From IMG/VR virus record IMGVR_UViG_3300045049_000102, positions 1-26,404 of that record: a stretch of DNA of 26,404 nucleotides. One strand, written 5' to 3'. Under the pieces are notes generated by a model. That model had not been told where the DNA came from, did not search any database, and saw nothing but the letters and a program-made list of their open reading frames with translations. The DNA is from a virus. The position numbers and the translations under genes are program-made. Of this stretch, positions 1,168 through 10,525 are shown one piece after another (the stretch's first letter is position 1; every line of letters begins with the position of its first letter).

Positions 1168-2600
1168 GATGCCTCTCCCTGCCGGCTGGCTGCAATTGCT
1201 GCGTCGATGGTTTCGGTGAAATGCTGGGCGACGCTGCCCCGCATCAGGTCTGCGCCCTTGGCGGGCGAGAGCCCGCGGAACACGAAACGTTGAGGATCGG
1301 CCGCCGCGCCCACATGCTTCAACGTTTCGCGCCACCGCTCCGCATCCTTTGCGTCTGCTGCGCTGGTGGCGCCGGTCAGGGCGTGCATTTCGGCGCGCAA
1401 GCCGGCAACAACGCGGTCCGCAATGTCCTTGTCGTAGGCTGCGAACGGTTCGCCGCTCCCATCATGGCAGCGGACCATCCGCATGGCCCCAGCGGCCTGC
1501 AAAATCGTCGCTACCCCGCCCGCACTGGCAGCGCCAGCTTTCCCCGTCGCGTCGGAAGGCGAGACAGCGGCGAGTTGTGCGCCGACGCGCTTCCCGGCCT
1601 CGAATCCGAGCGTCCAAGGATCGCCATCGGGTTGCGATGCGTCCTGCTGTGCATGCGCCGCCTCAGGTGCGGCCTTGATCTTGGCGACGATCTGGCTGCA
1701 ATAGTCGTCGGCCACCAGTCCTTGGCACATGCCGCTTTCGGCCAGCGCGAGGATTTCGGCCAGCAGCACGGGCGCCGCCTCGGGTGCGCGGTCCGGAACG
1801 ATGCCGCTGGCATCGCAGCGCTTGCACCACTCGTTCGCGCTGATTTTGGCCGAGCCTTCGCAGTCCGGGCACTCGCGCATATCAGCGGCCGGCGCATGGC
1901 ACACAGGCGCGGGAGGTTGACAGGCTTCGCGCTCCAGTTCGCGCGCCAAATCGCGCAGTTCGATGAATGCCGATCCGCGCGCGGCACCGTCGTCGTCCCA
2001 CTTCGCCATCAGGGCGTCGACGCGGGGCGTGCCGGCGGTAGGCGCGGCGGCCCGGTCGATAGCGGGCGATACCTGTCCGATAGGGTGGGCGAGAGCGGCG
2101 CGGGCCAATGCAACGCCAGCGGCAAATGCCTCGGCCTGATCCGTAATTGCGCCGCTCTGGTACAGCCCATCGCCGATATAGATCGCCGCCTCGCCGCGAT
2201 TCGACGCCCACTTCTCGAACTCGTACTTCACGTCCAGCGGCGCTGCCGGTGCATCTGCTGCAGCCCGGCGAGCGAGGGCGGCCAATTCAAGCGCGTCGTT
2301 TGCGAAGTTCTTCAGTTGCTGGAAATGCCCGGGATGAAAGGCGCAGATATCGCGGAACATGCTCGCGGCTCGCTCGATGCGGTTCAGCTGGTCCAGGTCG
2401 ATGCCTGCCGGTGCGGCTTGCAGCGGCTCGGTCGCCGGCGTGGCCACCTTCGCCAGATACTCGTCGTTGCCGATCAGGATGCGCTTGTCCGTGCCCGGGA
2501 TCTGCACCTCGGTGCCCGCCGTTCTCGTGCACTGCTGGTGCGCGATTGCTGCTGCGATCAGGCGGATTTTCGTGTGCTTGCAGGTGTCTTCGATGTTCAT
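1164..2600 (-). CDS. Large modular hypothetical protein with a zinc-knuckle motif
   Basis: This is the second-longest gene of the leftward operon, 478 aa, preceded by AGGGG six bases from the ATG. It looks like a chain of modules. An N-terminal part carries GTDKRILIGNDEYL. A central Ala-rich part follows. A DnaJ-like four-Cys motif (CPDC...CKRC near residue 250) comes next, then an EAGKRVGAQLA segment. The C-terminus, DAERWRETLKHVG followed by ETIDAAIAAS, resembles the DAxRYRxLR...DAAIDAA tail of many unnamed phage early proteins. I infer a patchwork built by recombination of short phage modules. No enzymatic function can be assigned. Confidence 0.7.
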   Translation of the reverse strand: MNIEDTCKHTKIRLIAAAIAHQQCTRTAGTEVQIPGTDKRILIGNDEYLAKVATPATEPLQAAPAGIDLDQLNRIERAASMFRDICAFHPGHFQQLKNFANDALELAALARRAAADAPAAPLDVKYEFEKWASNRGEAAIYIGDGLYQSGAITDQAEAFAAGVALARAALAHPIGQVSPAIDRAAAPTAGTPRVDALMAKWDDDGAARGSAFIELRDLARELEREACQPPAPVCHAPAADMRECPDCEGSAKISANEWCKRCDASGIVPDRAPEAAPVLLAEILALAESGMCQGLVADDYCSQIVAKIKAAPEAAHAQQDASQPDGDPWTLGFEAGKRVGAQLAAVSPSDATGKAGAASAGGVATILQAAGAMRMVRCHDGSGEPFAAYDKDIADRVVAGLRAEMHALTGATSAADAKDAERWRETLKHVGAAADPQRFVFRGLSPAKGADLMRGSVAQHFTETIDAAIAASRQGEAS

Positions 2601-2617
2601 GTCTGCCCCTAGTTTTG

Positions 2618-3169
2618 TTAGAACTGAACGTTGTTAGCCTTGATATGTGCCCACGATTCGCCTCTCAAAATCCGGTAGTACTGTGACTTTGAGATGCCGA
2701 AAAGCTTCTTTGCCTCATTCAATTTCATTCCTGCCTTGATGGCAGAAGCTTGGTCAGAAGTGAGCTTTGCGGTTGAGACCGCCTCGCCGCGCAGATCAGT
2801 TGCATGGATGATCCGATCATGCTGATTATTCGCCGGCGTATCCCACCGGAGATTGTCTTTATGGTTGTTCGTTTTATGACCGTCGTTGTGGCAAACCTGC
2901 ATACCTTCTGGCTTAGCCCCATGAAATGCAGTGCACACCAAAGCTGCGACGCGCATAGTTTTCGTCCCGCCGTCTTTGCATAGGCAGACGGTCATGTAAC
3001 CCGCACCAGCAGAGCTTTGGCTAAGAATTTTCCCTCGCCTTTTCAATGGAATTACCTTCCCAGCTTTATGACTGAACGAAGAGACAGTGCGGTCTACGCC
3101 CCTCACTCGTCCCAGGCTGGACACCTCATATAGGCCTTCGTAACCCGAGATCTGCTTCCAGATTTCCAT
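2618..3169 (-). CDS. NUMOD4/HNH homing-type endonuclease
   Basis: The 183-aa product begins MEIWKQISGYEGLYEVSSLG, the classic NUMOD4 DNA-contact module. An HNH_3-type core follows (HNDGHKTNNHKDNLRWDTP around residues 93-111, then NNQHDR). A C-terminal helix-turn-helix stretch (TSDQASAIKAGMKLNEAKKLF...SKSQYYRI) resembles target-reading modules of group-I-intron nucleases. The ATG at 3169 is chosen because GGAG lies 8 bases upstream; a GTG at 3184 would extend it by five residues. Base composition is visibly less GC-rich than the flanking genes, as expected for a selfish free-standing nuclease gene inserted next to ninB. Neither flanking gene looks interrupted. Confidence 0.9.
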   Translation of the reverse strand: MEIWKQISGYEGLYEVSSLGRVRGVDRTVSSFSHKAGKVIPLKRRGKILSQSSAGAGYMTVCLCKDGGTKTMRVAALVCTAFHGAKPEGMQVCHNDGHKTNNHKDNLRWDTPANNQHDRIIHATDLRGEAVSTAKLTSDQASAIKAGMKLNEAKKLFGISKSQYYRILRGESWAHIKANNVQF

Positions 3170-3171
3170 TG

Positions 3172-3549
3172 CTATGCGCTCCACTTCACGTCATGTTGTG
3201 CCCCGAATGCGGCTATCAATTCGAGCAGGTCTGACATCTCGCCTTTTGTCATCGAACTGGTTGAAATTCCCATGACAACGAATCCAGTTCCGTCTAGATT
3301 TGGCACGACGTCTTGTTTCTTGAGCGACGACGTGAAGATGTGCTTCCATGATTCAGTGCTCAGGCGCCGGCCATGCCAAACAACCTGCTCACTCACGTCG
3401 GTCAGCATCGCCCACATGGCTGCGTTGGCTTCCAGCGTGCGCGTTGGCGGACCGGCCTTGATCACGTAGCCCTCGGGCAGGTTCGCTACCTGCTCGGCTA
3501 CGTGGCGGCGGTTCGTGGCGGTGATGCGGAAGACGCGCTTTTCGCTCAT
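3172..3549 (-). CDS. ninB: NinB-like recombination protein
   Basis: The 125-aa protein matches the NinB (lambda Orf) family in length and in its conserved core: TRTLEANAAMWAMLTDVSEQ, WKHIFTSSLKK, and the C-terminal MTKGEMSDLLELIAAFGA. NinB/Orf binds single-stranded DNA and aids phage recombination by interacting with host SSB, substituting in part for host RecFOR. The ATG at 3549 is two bases after the stop of the upstream gene. It lies in the same operon as ERF, which fits a phage recombination module. In lambda, ninB sits in the rightward nin region; here it is in the leftward operon. Confidence 0.9.
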   Translation of the reverse strand: MSEKRVFRITATNRRHVAEQVANLPEGYVIKAGPPTRTLEANAAMWAMLTDVSEQVVWHGRRLSTESWKHIFTSSLKKQDVVPNLDGTGFVVMGISTSSMTKGEMSDLLELIAAFGAQHDVKWSA

Positions 3550-3551
3550 CG

Positions 3552-3854
3552 TCAACCCCAAGCGGACTGTTTCAGCATCGCGCGTTGCTGGGCCAGTCCT
3601 TCAATCTCGGCCACTTGGGCATCCATCTTGTCCAGAAGGTCGCCACCGTCCACCAGCAGCTTTCCGATTGCGGCACCGTCCGGCACCGCGTCGCCGTCCG
3701 GCTGGGCTAGTCGTAGAACCTGCGGAGCAATAGCCGCGAATGCGCCGCACAACACGGCAAGACGCTTCTTGGCGTCTTCATGCGCCGCGCGAACGATGGA
3801 ATACTGGCCTTTGGCGATCAATTCGCCTTGGTCAATGGCGTTGAAGTCGATCAT
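3552..3854 (-). CDS. Hypothetical helical protein between erf and ninB
   Basis: This 100-aa protein starts in an ATGA overlap with the end of the ERF gene. The sequence is mostly helical, with a heptad-like C-terminus (LLVDGGDLLDKMDAQVAEIE), and has no Cys or membrane segment. Its position between two recombination genes suggests a helper role, but no domain is recognised, so this is only contextual. Confidence 0.65.
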   Translation of the reverse strand: MIDFNAIDQGELIAKGQYSIVRAAHEDAKKRLAVLCGAFAAIAPQVLRLAQPDGDAVPDGAAIGKLLVDGGDLLDKMDAQVAEIEGLAQQRAMLKQSAWG

Positions 3855-4468
3855 GCTTGCTCCGCAAGGTTTTGGGTGAGTTGTGCTTTGCGCTCGCTGG
3901 CATGCTTCTGGAGCGCCTGTTTGCTGTTCGGGTACATCGCTACTGCGGCTTTCAGATGTTGGCCGATCTCTTCGACGGTTGCCGCAGCACGGATCGCGTT
4001 CACAGCATTCGCAAGACCCACACTATCCGGCTGGGCGCGCACCTCGTGCGTCTCTGCGTCCGAATCGACACTGGTTTCCTCAGTCGGGATGCAGAACGCC
4101 TGGAACGCGGCGTACTTGTAGGCGGCGCTCATGGCCTTGTTCGTGGCCTTGTCGCCACTGTCCATAGCCTCGCCGAACGTCGACACGGTGTGCTTGCTGC
4201 CGTCCTCCGCGCTCACCAGATCGAACTCGGCCTGCACCGTCACGTAGAACAGCGCGTTGCCCTTGGCGTTGGTGCGCTCGACGCATTCGCGGCTGATGCA
4301 GCGCGGCAGGATGCACAGCTTGTGCTTGGCCAGCAGCGGAGCCAGGGCGTTGTACACGGCGTCGATGCCGCGGAAGTTGAAACCTTGCGCCTGGTTGCGG
4401 CTATCCTTGGAGATTCCTCGCGCTGCCAGTTCGGCGGCGACTTCTGCGATTGCTTGGTAAACTTTCAT
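3851..4468 (-). CDS. erf: ERF-family single-strand annealing protein
   Basis: The 205-aa product opens with a helical segment and the family hallmark FNFRGIDAVYNALAPLLAKH at about residues 33-52. A beta-rich part follows (FYVTVQAEFDLVSAEDG) and then MDSGDKATNKAMSAAYKYA, another ERF signature. ERF proteins, known from P22, form rings that anneal complementary single strands and circularise or recombine phage DNA. The start at 4468 has GAGGA five bases upstream; the longer frame upstream is not needed. The acidic linker after TEETSVDSD probably separates the annealing core from a helical C-terminal domain. NinB and the coiled-coil gene are in the same operon. Confidence 0.93.
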   Translation of the reverse strand: MKVYQAIAEVAAELAARGISKDSRNQAQGFNFRGIDAVYNALAPLLAKHKLCILPRCISRECVERTNAKGNALFYVTVQAEFDLVSAEDGSKHTVSTFGEAMDSGDKATNKAMSAAYKYAAFQAFCIPTEETSVDSDAETHEVRAQPDSVGLANAVNAIRAAATVEEIGQHLKAAVAMYPNSKQALQKHASERKAQLTQNLAEQA

Positions 4469-4479
4469 GGTGTCCTCGA

Positions 4480-4710
4480 TCAGAAGGGCAAGTTGTTGTC
4501 TCGTACGTACTGCTCGTGCTTCTCGCGTTCCTGCTCGGTCATCACCGGGCGCCAGGGTTCGCCGCCTGCGGGCTTGACCGGCATCGGCGGCCACAGGGTC
4601 CGGCGCTGGGCTGCCTCTTCGTACCCCTGCAGCGCGTCGGCCGGATCGTCGGCCCACATGTCGCGCATCCTCTTCCCTGCGCGCATGGCTTCGCGGTATT
4701 TGCGTTTCAC
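4480..4710 (-). CDS. Hypothetical 76-aa protein, GTG start
   Basis: The frame could open at a TTG at 4722, but a GTG at 4710 has a strong GGAGG five bases upstream and forms a GTGA overlap with the stop of the tiny membrane-protein gene, so I choose 4710. The protein is highly charged (KRKYREAMRAGKRMRDMW) with a Pro/Trp-rich middle and an acidic end (TEQEREKHEQYVRDNNLPF). It lies 11 bases ahead of erf. Function unknown. Confidence 0.6.
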   Translation of the reverse strand: MKRKYREAMRAGKRMRDMWADDPADALQGYEEAAQRRTLWPPMPVKPAGGEPWRPVMTEQEREKHEQYVRDNNLPF

Positions 4711-7901: not shown

Positions 7902-7915
7902 CAGGCTCTTGCCTG
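7902..7915 (-). other. Small hairpin in the PL leader
   Basis: In the transcript of the leftward operon the leader carries CAGGC-AAGA-GCCTG, a 5-bp stem with a purine tetraloop, about 20 bases after the expected start site. It recalls boxB hairpins used by N-type antiterminators, but the loop is one base too short and I see no convincing boxA nearby. Confidence 0.3.
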
Positions 7916-7935
7916 CGGTTGGTTGCGATGGAGTT

Positions 7936-7964
7936 ATATTAGCCCTAGGCTAATAGGAATGCAA
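7936..7964 (-). promoter_or_regulatory. PL-like early leftward promoter
   Basis: On the minus strand a -35 box TTGCAT (7959-7964) and a -10 box TAATAT (7936-7941) are separated by exactly 17 bases. The perfect operator fills the spacer, so repressor binding would block polymerase. The same architecture occurs at PR. It would drive the early operon beginning at 7880, with a leader of about 50 bases. Confidence 0.7.
7937..7955. promoter_or_regulatory. Operator OL1
   Basis: TATTAGCCCTAGGCTAATA is an inverted repeat with perfect 8-bp arms around a 3-base centre. The core TTAGCCCTAGGCTAA is identical to the operator in PR. It lies between the -35 and -10 of the leftward promoter. It is the expected binding site for the CI-like and Cro-like proteins of this region. 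Confidence 0.75.
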
Positions 7965-7972
7965 GCGATATT

Positions 7973-7987
7973 TTCGCCAAAGGCTAA
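7973..7987. promoter_or_regulatory. Operator OL2 (imperfect)
   Basis: TTCGCCAAAGGCTAA matches the operator arms TTAGCC/GGCTAA with a single changed base in the left arm. Its centre is 34 bp from the centre of OL1. OR2 has the same arm variant and the same 34-bp distance, so the match is unlikely to be chance. Confidence 0.65.
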
Positions 7988-8115
7988 TGAGCATCCATGA
8001 AGGCGATGCGATGGGCTAAACAATCACGCGAGTGCGAGATGTTGTAAGCATGTGATGTGCTCGTAGGCTGTTGCTATTAGGACACATCGGGCGCGCCGGC
8101 CCGGCGTTATGACGC

Positions 8116-8140
8116 AAAAAAGCCCGCTCGGGGCGGGCTT
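8116..8140 (-). terminator. Terminator of the moron unit
   Basis: On the minus strand AAGCCCGC pairs perfectly with GCGGGCTT around a 5-base loop and is followed by TTTTTT. It lies downstream of the secreted-protein gene and upstream of PL, so it would stop cargo-gene transcription from entering the early promoter. Confidence 0.8.
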
Positions 8141-8153
8141 ATGGGGGCAGTCG

Positions 8154-8176
8154 CTACAGCATCGGTGCCGCTGTAG
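8154..8176. repeat. Inverted repeat
   Basis: CTACAGC and GCTGTAG form 7-bp arms around a 9-base loop. There is no U-tract, so it is not an obvious terminator. It lies in the 125-base gap between the moron terminator and the secreted-protein gene, which otherwise shows no coding sequence. Confidence 0.4.
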
Positions 8177-8265
8177 AGGCCTCTAGTGAGGACTTAAGCC
8201 TGATGCCGGGGCAGAGCAGGAACACGGAAATTGTAACAATCACATCCTGCATTGAGCAAGATTCT

Positions 8266-8586
8266 TCATTGAACGTCCCGAATCGTGCCATTGAGAATCA
8301 TTTTCACGCCTGATCCTTTGACCAAAATCACGACAGTAGGATGGTATGCATACTCATACCAGTAGCCACTGCAAGTCACGGCAAACTGATAATTTAGGAT
8401 CAAGACTCGGCCGTAGTTACATCCTTCATATGCATCCCCTTTCTTTCCGTCTCGGTCCCTCCAGCCCGTGATCTGATAGGTTCCAAGAATCGTCCAGCCC
8501 TCCAATCGGCCTAGTTCATCTTCTATGGATGCGGTAGCTGAAAATGAGGCAACAGCAAGGGCTGCAGCTAGCAAGGTTCTTTTCAT
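8266..8586 (-). CDS. Secreted or periplasmic protein (moron)
   Basis: The 106-aa protein starts at the ATG at 8586, with GGGGA five bases upstream. The N-terminus MKRTLLAAALAVASFSATAS is a textbook Sec signal with a likely cut after ATA. The mature part is about 87 residues, aromatic-rich and beta-like (GWTILGTYQITGWRD, SGYWYEYAYHP), with two Cys that could form a disulfide. Its base composition is lower in GC than the phage genes. It is co-oriented with the lipoprotein gene, suggesting a two-gene cargo expressed from the prophage. It may alter the host envelope; the exact function is unknown. Confidence 0.75.
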   Translation of the reverse strand: MKRTLLAAALAVASFSATASIEDELGRLEGWTILGTYQITGWRDRDGKKGDAYEGCNYGRVLILNYQFAVTCSGYWYEYAYHPTVVILVKGSGVKMILNGTIRDVQ

Positions 8587-8625
8587 TTCATCCCCATCTG
8601 GCATCTTGGCGTGCCGTGGCGCCTT

Positions 8626-8650
8626 CCCCGCCGCGAGCGGGGATTATTTT
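8626..8650. terminator. Hairpin between the two moron genes
   Basis: CCCCGC (8626-8631) pairs with GCGGGG (8637-8642) around CGCGA. On the plus strand it is followed by ATTATTTTTATT, giving terminator character rightward. On the minus strand there is no U-tract after it. It may attenuate antisense transcription or act as an intercistronic stabiliser. Confidence 0.4.
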
Positions 8651-9288
8651 TATTGAACCTGGACACTCGCTGGGCACGTACTCACAAACGTCCGCCAAAA
8701 CGTCTGTCCGGCATAGCTATACTCGCATGTCCAACCAATCTGGTTAGTGATGGTCTGGGCCTGCTGCTGCTTTCCTGTCCAGTATGCGGTTACGCCAGTA
8801 TTCGTAGTTCTGATCGGCGGTACCTGCATAGGTTGTACGCGCTGAGTATTGGTCGTCGTTATGGGCGTAAACGGAACCGGAGAGATCAATGGGCGGTTCT
8901 GCATGATTTGGGTTGCTAGAGCCAAGTTTGCCGCTTGCCGCTGACGCGCCTCTTCGGCAAGTTGGTTGCTAATAATTTGCCATTGAGCTTTCCCATCGCG
9001 TTTTTCGAATTCGAAATCTTCTTGGGAAATTTCGCCCTTCTCGAATCGCTGCGCGCTATGTCGAAGCTTATTGGTAATCTGATACAACTGTGGCGGGAAG
9101 TCAGCCATTACCTGACGTTCATACACAGCAGCAAAATAATCGGACCATTTCATTTGGCCGGCTTCAGCCTGCGGCCTATGCATTGAAACATATTGCTGCA
9201 GTTCAGCCAACCTAGGGTTGGGGCGAGGTGGTTCGGGAGTGGCGCATCCACTGATGAGTATCAGGAAAGCTAACAAGATCTTCTTCAT
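8650..9288 (-). CDS. Lipoprotein (moron)
   Basis: From the ATG at 9288 the product begins MKKILLAFLILISGCATPEPP, a lipoprotein signal with lipobox ISGC and acylated Cys15. The mature protein (about 198 aa) has a helical, charged first half (FEKGEISQEDFEFEKRDG, EEARQRQAANLALATQIMQ). A Pro/Thr/Gln-rich middle follows, then a C-terminal Cys-containing patch (GWTCEYSYAGQTFWRTF). Lower GC content than its neighbours and a separate promoter suggest acquisition as a lysogenic cargo gene. Prophage lipoproteins often block re-infection or change the surface, which is a possible but unproven role here. Confidence 0.8.
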   Translation of the reverse strand: MKKILLAFLILISGCATPEPPRPNPRLAELQQYVSMHRPQAEAGQMKWSDYFAAVYERQVMADFPPQLYQITNKLRHSAQRFEKGEISQEDFEFEKRDGKAQWQIISNQLAEEARQRQAANLALATQIMQNRPLISPVPFTPITTTNTQRVQPMQVPPIRTTNTGVTAYWTGKQQQAQTITNQIGWTCEYSYAGQTFWRTFVSTCPASVQVQ

Positions 9289-9337
9289 CGCGCTCTCAGG
9301 CAGTATTAGGCGCCGTCGCGCCCGCTTCAATTGTTAA

Positions 9338-9366
9338 ATTATTCACTTCATATGACACGAACACAA
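9338..9366 (-). promoter_or_regulatory. Promoter of the moron unit
   Basis: On the minus strand TTGTGT (-35, 9361-9366) and AATAAT (-10, 9338-9343) are separated by 17 bases. No copy of the phage operator overlaps it, so these genes could stay on in the lysogen. The -10 matches the consensus in five of six bases. Confidence 0.55.
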
Positions 9367-9621
9367 CCTAGCGCAAACCACTGTATGGGTGTACAGTAAC
9401 TTTGTCGCAAACGCGCTGCTGCGCAGCAATTGCGGTCGAAATGTAACAGTGGTCGAATTGCTTCGCATCAATACAAAAACCGTGCTATTTTGTAAGGCAA
9501 TTCCTAGCAGAACCCATAAGGAAATCCCTAGGATGATGGGCGTCTACTGTTCTGGATTGCCACACGAAAACCATCAGATACTGAACGGGCTCGTTGATAC
9601 GTCCCTTCTTTCGAGGTGTGT
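9367..9621. other. Intergenic region, possible 30-aa leader ORF and weak promoter
   Basis: Together with 9289-9366 this is a gap of over 300 bases between divergent transcripts. It holds CTGTA-TGGGTG-TACAG (9381-9396), the palindrome TGCTGCGCAGCA (9417-9428) and an extended -10-like TGCTATTTT (9483-9491) facing right. A 30-codon plus-strand frame (9533-9625) begins MMGVYCSGLPHENH and ends in an ATGA overlap with the ATG at 9622, so it could be a leader peptide. None of these is strongly supported. Confidence 0.35.
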
Positions 9622-9870
9622 ATGAACCATTTGCCAGAGATCGCGGCGATGTATGCATTGCTGAATGACACAGGGCGAGAGCATCTCCGCGGCATGGCTC
9701 GGCAGCTGCTACGCCGCTATGCAAAACAGGCGCACCACGCGTCACTTTCTACCCTGGAGAGCCGCGACAATATCGAGCTTCTCGATGACCAGACGCACGG
9801 CACTGTCTATGAGTTCCCGCTGGTCAGCGTTGGCAAGGTTGTAAACGGACACAAGCCGGACGTCGGCTGA
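9622..9870 (+). CDS. Hypothetical protein convergent with and overlapping cI
   Basis: The ATG at 9622 has GAGG about seven bases upstream. The 82-aa product starts MNHLPEIAAMYALLNDTGRE HLRGMARQLLRRYA, which resembles small regulatory-region proteins of betaproteobacterial phages with a LLNDTGRExLxxxAR motif. Only the first ~40 residues look conserved in style. The remainder runs antisense through the last 129 bases of the repressor gene and may be a mutated extension. Its transcript would be antisense to cI. Real coding is likely but not certain. Confidence 0.5.
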   Translation: MNHLPEIAAMYALLNDTGREHLRGMARQLLRRYAKQAHHASLSTLESRDNIELLDDQTHGTVYEFPLVSVGKVVNGHKPDVG

Positions 9871-10164
9871 TGCTTCAGCCAGAAGCTTACGCAAAGCGGT
9901 AGCCTCGCTGGACGGGACTAGGGTCATAGGAGCGTGCTCGACGTCCATCCAGCCCTCTGGCTTCCGCAGGGTACGCTCGATCTCTCGGCACGACCCGCTG
10001 CTGATTGCTCGCGGCTTCCCAGTCCCGGAATGAGTGGACGCGTTGAGCCATTGACTGATCTGCGATTGACCTTTCCCAAGTCGATCGGCCAGTTCTTGAA
10101 CGCCACCTAGTTCATCACGCAAGCGACGTAAATTGTCGCGGCGCACATCCTCTATTTTTTTCAT
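9742..10164 (-). CDS. CI-like repressor without protease domain
   Basis: From the ATG at 10164 the 140-aa protein begins with a helix and an XRE helix-turn-helix (GVQELADRLGKGQSQISQWL, about residues 21-40). GSCREIERTLRKPEGWMDVEH follows, a pattern typical of short phage repressors. The C-terminus (LANADQRELIDSAVRLVIEK) is a helical, probably dimerising segment. The Ser/Lys S24 peptidase domain of lambda CI is absent and the protein is far shorter, so RecA-stimulated self-cleavage is not expected. It is divergent from the Cro-like gene and flanked by operators. A GTG at 10182 is a weaker start. No clear Shine-Dalgarno is visible. Confidence 0.82.
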   Translation of the reverse strand: MKKIEDVRRDNLRRLRDELGGVQELADRLGKGQSQISQWLNASTHSGTGKPRAISSGSCREIERTLRKPEGWMDVEHAPMTLVPSSEATALRKLLAEASADVRLVSVYNLANADQRELIDSAVRLVIEKLDIVAALQGRK

Positions 10165-10168
10165 TGTT

Positions 10169-10199
10169 GTATTAGACGCCACATTGGCTAAAGGTTGAA
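10169..10199 (-). promoter_or_regulatory. Possible PRM for the repressor
   Basis: On the minus strand a -10-like TAATAC (10169-10174) lies where transcription would begin at or just before the repressor ATG, giving a leaderless message as at lambda PRM. The only -35 candidate, TTCAAC (10194-10199), is poor and 19 bases away, so activation by repressor at OR2, which abuts this -35, is plausible. Confidence 0.3.
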
Positions 10200-10214
10200 T
10201 TCGCCTCTGGCTAA
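10200..10214. promoter_or_regulatory. Operator OR2 (imperfect)
   Basis: TTCGCCTCTGGCTAA has the same degenerate left arm (TTCGCC) and intact right arm (GGCTAA) as OL2. Its centre is 34 bp from that of OR1. A further lone half-site GGCTAA is at 10186-10191, close to the repressor start. Confidence 0.65.
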
Positions 10215-10222
10215 TAACGCGC

Positions 10223-10251
10223 TTGCGTTTGCATTAGCCCTAGGCTAATAT
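10223..10251 (+). promoter_or_regulatory. PR-like early rightward promoter
   Basis: TTGCGT (10223-10228) and TAATAT (10246-10251) are spaced by 17 bases with the perfect operator in the spacer, exactly as at PL. Transcription should start near 10258, almost on the ATG at 10259, so the first gene would be read from a leaderless or near-leaderless message. Confidence 0.7.
10233..10249. promoter_or_regulatory. Operator OR1
   Basis: ATTAGCCCTAGGCTAAT is identical in its 15-base core to OL1 and overlaps the PR spacer and -10 box. Binding of the CI-like or Cro-like protein would shut PR. Confidence 0.75.
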
Positions 10252-10258
10252 GGTGCGT

Positions 10259-10525
10259 ATGAACCTCGCTACCTACCTATCCGAGCAGCGCGGCCGCCAA
10301 GCAGCGTTGGCAAAAGCCATAGGCGTCCATGCACCAGACATCAGCCGGTGGCTCACCGGCTCGCGTCCTATCCCGACGAAATACGGCGCTGCCATCGAGG
10401 CGGCCACCGGTGGACTCGTGACCCGAAAAGAACTATTCCCCGACGAATGGAAGCGCATCTGGCCGGAGCTGGAACGTCGTCGCAAGACCGACGCGCCACC
10501 GGCGCCCGCATCCCAGCCGCAGTAA
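10259..10525 (+). CDS. Cro/YdaS-like DNA-binding protein
   Basis: The 88-aa product MNLATYLSEQRGRQAALAKA continues IGVHAPDISRWLTGSRPIP and then a C-terminal segment ending in a Pro/Ala tail. The HTH (about residues 14-32) and length fit the YdaS family of Cro-like phage regulators. The frame opens earlier at 10250, but that ATG overlaps the -10 box and would precede the predicted transcription start, so 10259 is preferred. It is the first gene of the PR operon and should bind the same operators to control the lytic switch. A hairpin terminator overlaps its stop codon. Confidence 0.85.
   Translation: MNLATYLSEQRGRQAALAKAIGVHAPDISRWLTGSRPIPTKYGAAIEAATGGLVTRKELFPDEWKRIWPELERRRKTDAPPAPASQPQ

Follow-up and report, generated by a model that had tools for sequence, protein, structure and literature searches.

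Operator pairs spaced 34 bp apart in a lambda-like phage occupy one rung of a 24/34/44-bp series found in its relatives

Why should the paired operators of a lambda-like genetic switch lie 34 base pairs (bp) apart, when those of lambda lie 24 bp apart? This question is raised by the putative immunity region in the virus record IMGVR_UViG_3300045049_000102, which was analysed in its entirety (26,404 bases, the window). The motif TTAGCCNNNGGCTAA is present in the window as two perfect copies and two copies with one mismatch. The perfect, palindromic copy, TTAGCCCTAGGCTAA, is located at 7939-7953 (left operator OL1) and 10234-10248 (right operator OR1), which agrees to the base with the identical cores placed at 7939 and 10234 in a preliminary description of this DNA. 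The one-mismatch copy, TTCGCCNNNGGCTAA, is located at 7973-7987 (OL2) and 10200-10214 (OR2), all four being given on the plus strand. The centres are 34 bp apart in both pairs, exactly as described before, and those of OL1 and OR1 are 2295 bp apart. It had been considered that the motif might be equally common elsewhere; in the window, no site other than these four matches with one mismatch or fewer, and shuffled sequences are expected to contain 0.02 and reached four in 0 of 100 trials. With up to three mismatches allowed, 15 sites were found against 5.5 expected, and therefore only the strict motif is informative. The two arms had also been called mirror images, which holds for the order of the sites. 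However, the weak half of O2 (TTCGCC), which carries the mismatch, points in one absolute direction in both arms, which are therefore mirrored in site order and not in the orientation of O2.

Both perfect copies are held within promoter-like sequences of the form TTGC(A/G)T-17-TAATAT, and the earlier reading of these was correct in sequence. The putative PL (minus strand) has its -35 hexamer TTGCAT at 7959-7964 and its -10 box TAATAT at 7936-7941, separated by 17 bp and overlapping OL1 at the -10 box; the putative PR (plus strand) has TTGCGT at 10223-10228 and TAATAT at 10246-10251, the latter overlapping OR1. OR lies between two divergent genes, encoding a CI-like repressor of 140 amino acids (9742-10164, minus strand) and a Cro/YdaS-like regulator (10259-10525, plus strand), which matches the YdaS family PF15943 with 57.7 bits against a cut-off of 30. 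The overall gene plan is lambda-like, consisting of a leftward operon with an Erf-type recombinase (3854-4681, minus strand), OL, two small leftward genes, the leftward repressor gene, OR, the rightward cro gene, and rightward genes up to the terminase. The region probably confers immunity in a lambda-like phage of temperate lifestyle, in which the repressor and the Cro/YdaS-like protein would bind the operators, O1 and O2 would be occupied cooperatively, and OR2 would activate the repressor promoter PRM. The lambda-type assignment of OL and OR made earlier is borne out by the presence of both regulators and by the conservation of matched operator pairs in relatives.

When 2.9 million viral contigs were scanned with the repressor, four relatives were found. 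Three of them (L003, L004, and L005, repressors 64-74% identical) keep both pairs at 34 bp, with the NNN core free and the variant half in O2, and the fourth (L006, repressor 44% identical) has a different palindrome with spacings of 24 and 24 bp. The sample was extended with a profile of the repressor N-terminal domain (A1), which gave 79 loci, and a Cro profile (A2), from which the best 80 of 187 loci were taken. Together with the earlier loci and three named phages, and after identical intergenic DNA was merged (167 to 102), this made 102 distinct CI-Cro intergenic regions. OR2 was defined as the best non-overlapping site, without any prior on spacing except that it had to be at least 17 bp from OR1 and at least 28 bp from the repressor start. 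Of the 102 regions, 93 had a unique OR2 with a score of 7/10 or higher; the others were left out because of ties (L037, L092, L114, and L181), an OR2 score of 6 (L093, L119, L172, and L173), or a misplaced OR1 (L110). A search in which OR3 was fixed first had assigned a wrong OR2 in the clade of the window and was superseded by this search without that order.

The OR1-OR2 distance was 23-25, 33-35, or 44 bp in 88 of the 93 regions (64, 23, and one region, L063, respectively), and no region had a distance of 26-32 or 36-43 bp. In shuffled intergenic DNA, a qualifying site was found in 11% of trials, and 30% of those fell on 23-25, 33-35, or 43-45 bp. A full OR3 is present in most relatives, and OR2-OR3 is 24 bp in 79 of the 88 regions with a unique OR3; the window has a half-site, GGCTAA, at this position (10186-10191, plus strand). 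The best single contrast is that between L022 and L085, whose Cro proteins are 90% identical, while their OR spacings are 23 and 34 bp.

OL pairs were accepted if one site scored at least 9/10 and the other at least 8/10 at a distance of 15-60 bp. Among 95 such pairs, 30 were spaced 25-26 bp, 51 were spaced 33-35 bp, and one was spaced 45 bp (82/95 on rungs), and the remaining 13 pairs, at other distances, all came from regions that also have a rung pair. An OL pair on a rung was found in 82 of the 102 regions. The rungs of the two operator regions occur in several combinations: OR 24 with OL 25 (n = 27), 24 with 34 (n = 26), 34 with 34 (n = 22), 34 with 45 (n = 1), and 44 with 34 (n = 1). DNA was also scanned independently of any protein for paired palindromes, with distances of 20-50 bp permitted. 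In a first scan all 23 pairs were at 24, 34, or 35 bp, but its second site was limited to sequences starting with TT, which biased it against the 25-26-bp OL class. Redone without this limit, the scans gave 14/14 (C-type) and 13/13 (G-type) pairs at 24-26, 33-35, or 45 bp. As a control, the limited pattern had 12 matches in 257 gigabases of cellular genomes, six of them on rungs, which is near the expected fraction of 12/31. Some contigs are shared among the scans, which thus do not represent independent trials.

According to these counts, the 34-bp distance is not private to the phage of the window but belongs, as one rung, to a 24/34/44-bp series shared by a large family. The sites and their conservation are secure, and the ladder is secure as a count, though drawn from related phages. 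No published operator spacing series was found in the open-licence PMC literature. Two further observations concern these sites. Directly downstream of OL1, the leader of the putative PL (7915-7941, minus strand) carries TAATATAACTCCATCGCAAC, which is almost identical in L010, L012, L019, and L021, though the later sequence diverges. In L005, a set of four palindromes of the GTCCCGATTTGGGAC type, with spacings of 24, 23, and 34 bp, was found at 2702-2797, within an open reading frame (ORF) resembling a replication initiator (2088-3224, minus strand); these palindromes are probably origin iterons, whose likeness to the rungs may be due to coincidence or constraint.

The position of the additional turn was read from the place of OR2 relative to the repressor start and to PR. 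The centre of OR2 is 43 bp upstream of the repressor ATG in the window, as in 69 of the 93 regions, and 44 bp upstream in 13 others. In the 72 regions with OR2 at exactly 43 bp, columns -12 to -7 upstream of the repressor start read T-N-T-A-A-T, with TT at -35/-34, which are canonical positions for the PRM -10 and -35 elements. The corresponding minus-strand elements in the window are a candidate PRM -10 box, TCTAAT (10171-10176), 6 bp upstream of the repressor ATG, and a -35-like hexamer, TTCAAC (10194-10199), which adjoins OR2, with a spacer of 17 bp; from this arrangement we infer a leaderless repressor mRNA. The cro ATG at 10259 begins 7 bp past the PR -10 box, as in relatives (an in-frame ATG at 10250 overlaps this box), and the distance from the cro ATG to the OR1 centre is 17-19 bp in 87 of 93 regions; the cro mRNA may be leaderless too. 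On the other side, a rough hexamer search placed the best PR -35 hexamer over OR2 in 69 of 73 regions of the 24-bp class versus none of the 23 regions of the 34-bp class, where the inter-operator sequences have a TTG beginning 7-9 bp past OR2 in 23/23. In the class counts, as in the tree of these loci, OR spacing was assigned by eye (24 or 25) for L077, L092, L112, L114, and L140, and L113 was kept off the tree for its length. Since OR2 is constant relative to the repressor start, the putative leaderless PRM with OR2 near -42 is unchanged, and the inserted turn lies between OR2 and the PR -35 hexamer. By its sequence, the window thus contains a switch of lambda type that is longer by one helical turn at this place. 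Tandem duplication was rejected as the origin of the extra turn, as self-matching at a shift of 10 amounts to 42/208 (20%), which is at chance level.

The repressor of the window differs from lambda CI in its C-terminus. Its Pfam matches are confined to the helix-turn-helix (HTH) half, with HTH_3 barely over the cut-off, and the self-cleaving S24 domain was not found in the 140 residues, where only HTH families matched. An AlphaFold model (8 sequences, mean pLDDT 78) consists of an HTH domain followed by C-terminal helices at residues 86-110, 113-129, and 132-138, which are predicted with moderate confidence to form an all-helical hairpin. The closest solved structure, by sequence and fold, is Rep of Salmonella phage SPC32H (PDB 5d50), matching over residues 1-78; the TetDloop tetramer domain that characterises Rep at its C-terminus lies outside the matched part. 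That the short repressor form is induced by an antirepressor, as in SPC32H, would be a guess. Relatives with the same N-terminal DNA-binding domain (e.g., L022, L008, and L018 versus the window) have an S24-like domain in 67 of 101 cases (by motif) and a short tail in 30 of 101. The type of C-terminus changed at least 17 times on the tree, and the short tails are of several kinds. Both S24-like and short C-termini are found at 24-bp and 34-bp spacing. A link between short repressors and 34-bp spacing (16/23 in the 34-bp class versus 13/72 in the 24-bp class) was set aside, as there are too few independent pairs.

The 15-bp operators of OL and OR are predicted to be shared targets of the repressor and the Cro/YdaS-like protein. 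Because OL1 and OR1 take up the spacers of PL and PR, respectively, and reach into the -10 boxes, repressor bound there would block both promoters. By analogy with lambda, RacR, and PaaR2, another dimer at OL2 or OR2 would bind cooperatively with the first, from a position that is more distant than in lambda by a single helical turn but faces almost the same way; from OR2, centred 43 bp upstream of the leaderless start, it would activate PRM as lambda CI does from its OR2. As OR2 is clear of the PR -35 hexamer in the 34-bp class, it should aid repression only through cooperativity and PRM activation. OL may plausibly pair with OR by forming a loop of about 2.3 kb. For cooperative binding and looping, the phase-locked spacing serves as indirect evidence. 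Two-site OL12-OR12 loops of lambda are reported to form, about two-fold weaker than three-site loops (PMC8053113), and a two-site arrangement as in the window could thus loop.

Steps of about one helix turn suggest that repressors act jointly only when they are bound on one face of the double helix, and cooperation of lambda repressors across integral turns has been reported with moved operators (Hochschild and Ptashne 1986). We consider it an evenly balanced proposition that the family represents a natural helical ladder, in which the distance between paired operators evolved in whole turns only (OR 24, 34, and 44; OL 25, 34, and 45), with OR2-PRM and OR2-OR3 fixed. The added turn would lift OR2 off the PR -35 hexamer and so part the blocking of PR from the activation of PRM, while cooperativity would be kept with unrelated repressor C-terminal domains.

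Several points weigh against the main explanation, an immunity region with cooperatively bound operator pairs. Lambda CI cooperates through the S24 domain, which the short repressor of the window is without. The count of S24-like domains given above rests on a regular expression for a short motif. According to work on the 933W repressor, neighbouring lambdoid operators can be occupied without cooperativity (PMC3317979). Five of the 93 OR1-OR2 distances are off the rungs (17, 17, 18, 48, and 49 bp); by eye, the 48- and 49-bp cases pass over a weaker OR2 at 24-25 bp and one of the 17-bp cases (L140) overlaps a site at 24 bp, and L164 and L174 remain off the ladder. From 399 cellular genomes of one order, which served as an independent set, 30 loci were taken and six were scored, at 23, 24, 25, 25, 25, and 31 bp, a weak and mixed result with most loci too remote; the 31-bp case (L201) is beside an overlapping weaker site at 24 bp by eye. 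Finally, the sample is phylogenetically nested, the six minimal OR-class changes on the tree have weak branch support, and the 34/44 class may have arisen only once (p 0.355 in a test that did not reject this), which leaves it uncertain how often the spacing changed independently.

Three other explanations of the rungs were weighed. It might be that both operators of a pair are gripped by a single stable tetramer of the repressor, as proposed for SPC32H Rep with its domains paired in trans, and that 24 and 34 bp are simply the distances it can span. Besides being nearest in structure to the N-terminal half of the window repressor, Rep is reported to be tetrameric when it binds DNA, each pair combining members of different dimers (PMC9638917), and octamers are reported for RacR and PaaR2, which are small repressors in switches of the YdaS type (PMC11014345, PMC8630535). 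However, the likeness to 5d50 stops with residue 78, and the rungs do not differ between repressors with an S24-type C-terminus and those with a short one, which no one tetramer architecture would account for; we regard the clamp as unlikely. Shared ancestry alone, with few spacing changes and an accidental gap between rungs, could draw on the unrejected single clade and on the starred branches of the tree, which force one change only. Yet the OL and OR pairs together, the singletons at 44 and 45 bp, and the 36-bp spacing in the Rac prophage need several length changes, all near whole-turn multiples, and OR2-OR3 stays constant at 24 bp, which leaves ancestry alone a quite unlikely account. Very unlikely, lastly, is a ladder set by divergent promoter geometry, with PRM and PR kept in phase for RNA polymerase and the operators carried along, because, although OR1 moves with PR and OR2 with PRM (at 43 bp), which makes the OR1-OR2 spacing equal to that between the promoters, OL pairs have the same rungs (25-26, 33-35, and 45) with no known PRM-like partner and combine freely with those of OR, and geometry that involves PRM, absent from OL, cannot set the ladder alone.

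If distances did evolve in whole helical turns, nature appears to have varied the same operator distance at two operator regions, with different repressor C-termini. Pairs such as L022/L085 let one ask whether OR2 must overlap PR, and the family offers a way to ask whether short repressors without a cleavable domain cooperate like CI. The locus is a lambda-type switch in a new spacing variant, ordinary in kind, and the whole-turn series of its family is worth following.

As in lambda, the operators of OR lie between divergent genes for a repressor and Cro, they recur at a second, leftward promoter in mirrored order as OL, and PL contains OL1 as PR contains OR1. In the lambda annotation, OR1-OR2 is 24, OR2-OR3 23, OL1-OL2 24, OL2-OL3 20, and OR2 to the cI ATG 42 bp, the last being close to the 43 bp of the window, as is the OL-OR distance (about 2.4 kb against about 2.3 kb). 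Unlike lambda, the window has an OR1-OR2 distance of 34 bp, an OR2 clear of the PR -35 hexamer, an unrelated operator sequence, and a repressor without S24, and OR3 is a mere half-site in its clade, so OR does not have three operators. The PaaR2-YdaS switch of CP-933P and the RacR-YdaS switch of K-12 Rac are reported to be similar in having a YdaS-family Cro, a short repressor whose C-terminus is not CI-like, a PL with operators, and, for paaR2, a leaderless transcript with a measured start (PMC8630535, PMC11014345). They differ from the window in operator sequence and in having four inverted repeats at OR, rather than two and a half-site. In K-12 Rac, we found TTAGGC-type palindromes spaced 26, 25, and 36 bp around the racR start and up to ydaS, which fits the published description of four inverted repeats for RacR (PMC11014345).

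Burkholderia phages KS9 and BgManors32 and Bordetella phage vB_BaM-IFTN9 share the CI-Cro layout, with Cro proteins 49-69% identical to that of the window and, in KS9 and BgManors32, repressors of 133 amino acids. However, their operators are TTAGCG-type, and OR1-OR2 is 25 bp in KS9 and BgManors32 and a tie (25 or 32) in vB_BaM-IFTN9. No close named phage was found, as neither a DNA match to the window nor a match to its repressor was obtained in the phage collection; Xanthomonas phage PBR31 has the most similar terminase (75.5%).

A small ORF (9616-9870, plus strand) is convergent with the repressor gene and overlaps its 3' end. Similar ORFs (40-52% identity) are in the same place in 7/7 close clade relatives, 31 residues are matched at 74% at the contig end in L021, and a plus-strand gene occupies a comparable position in KS9 and BgManors32. 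It is a possible regulator of the repressor, and its conservation may be due in part to the antisense overlap with the repressor gene. Between the repressor and OL, at the position of lambda rex, two minus-strand genes (8269-8604 and 8653-9294) encode proteins with signal-peptide-like starts, one of them lipoprotein-like, and are candidates for lysogenic conversion or exclusion. The larger protein (8653-9294) has partial relatives in L003, L021, and L127.

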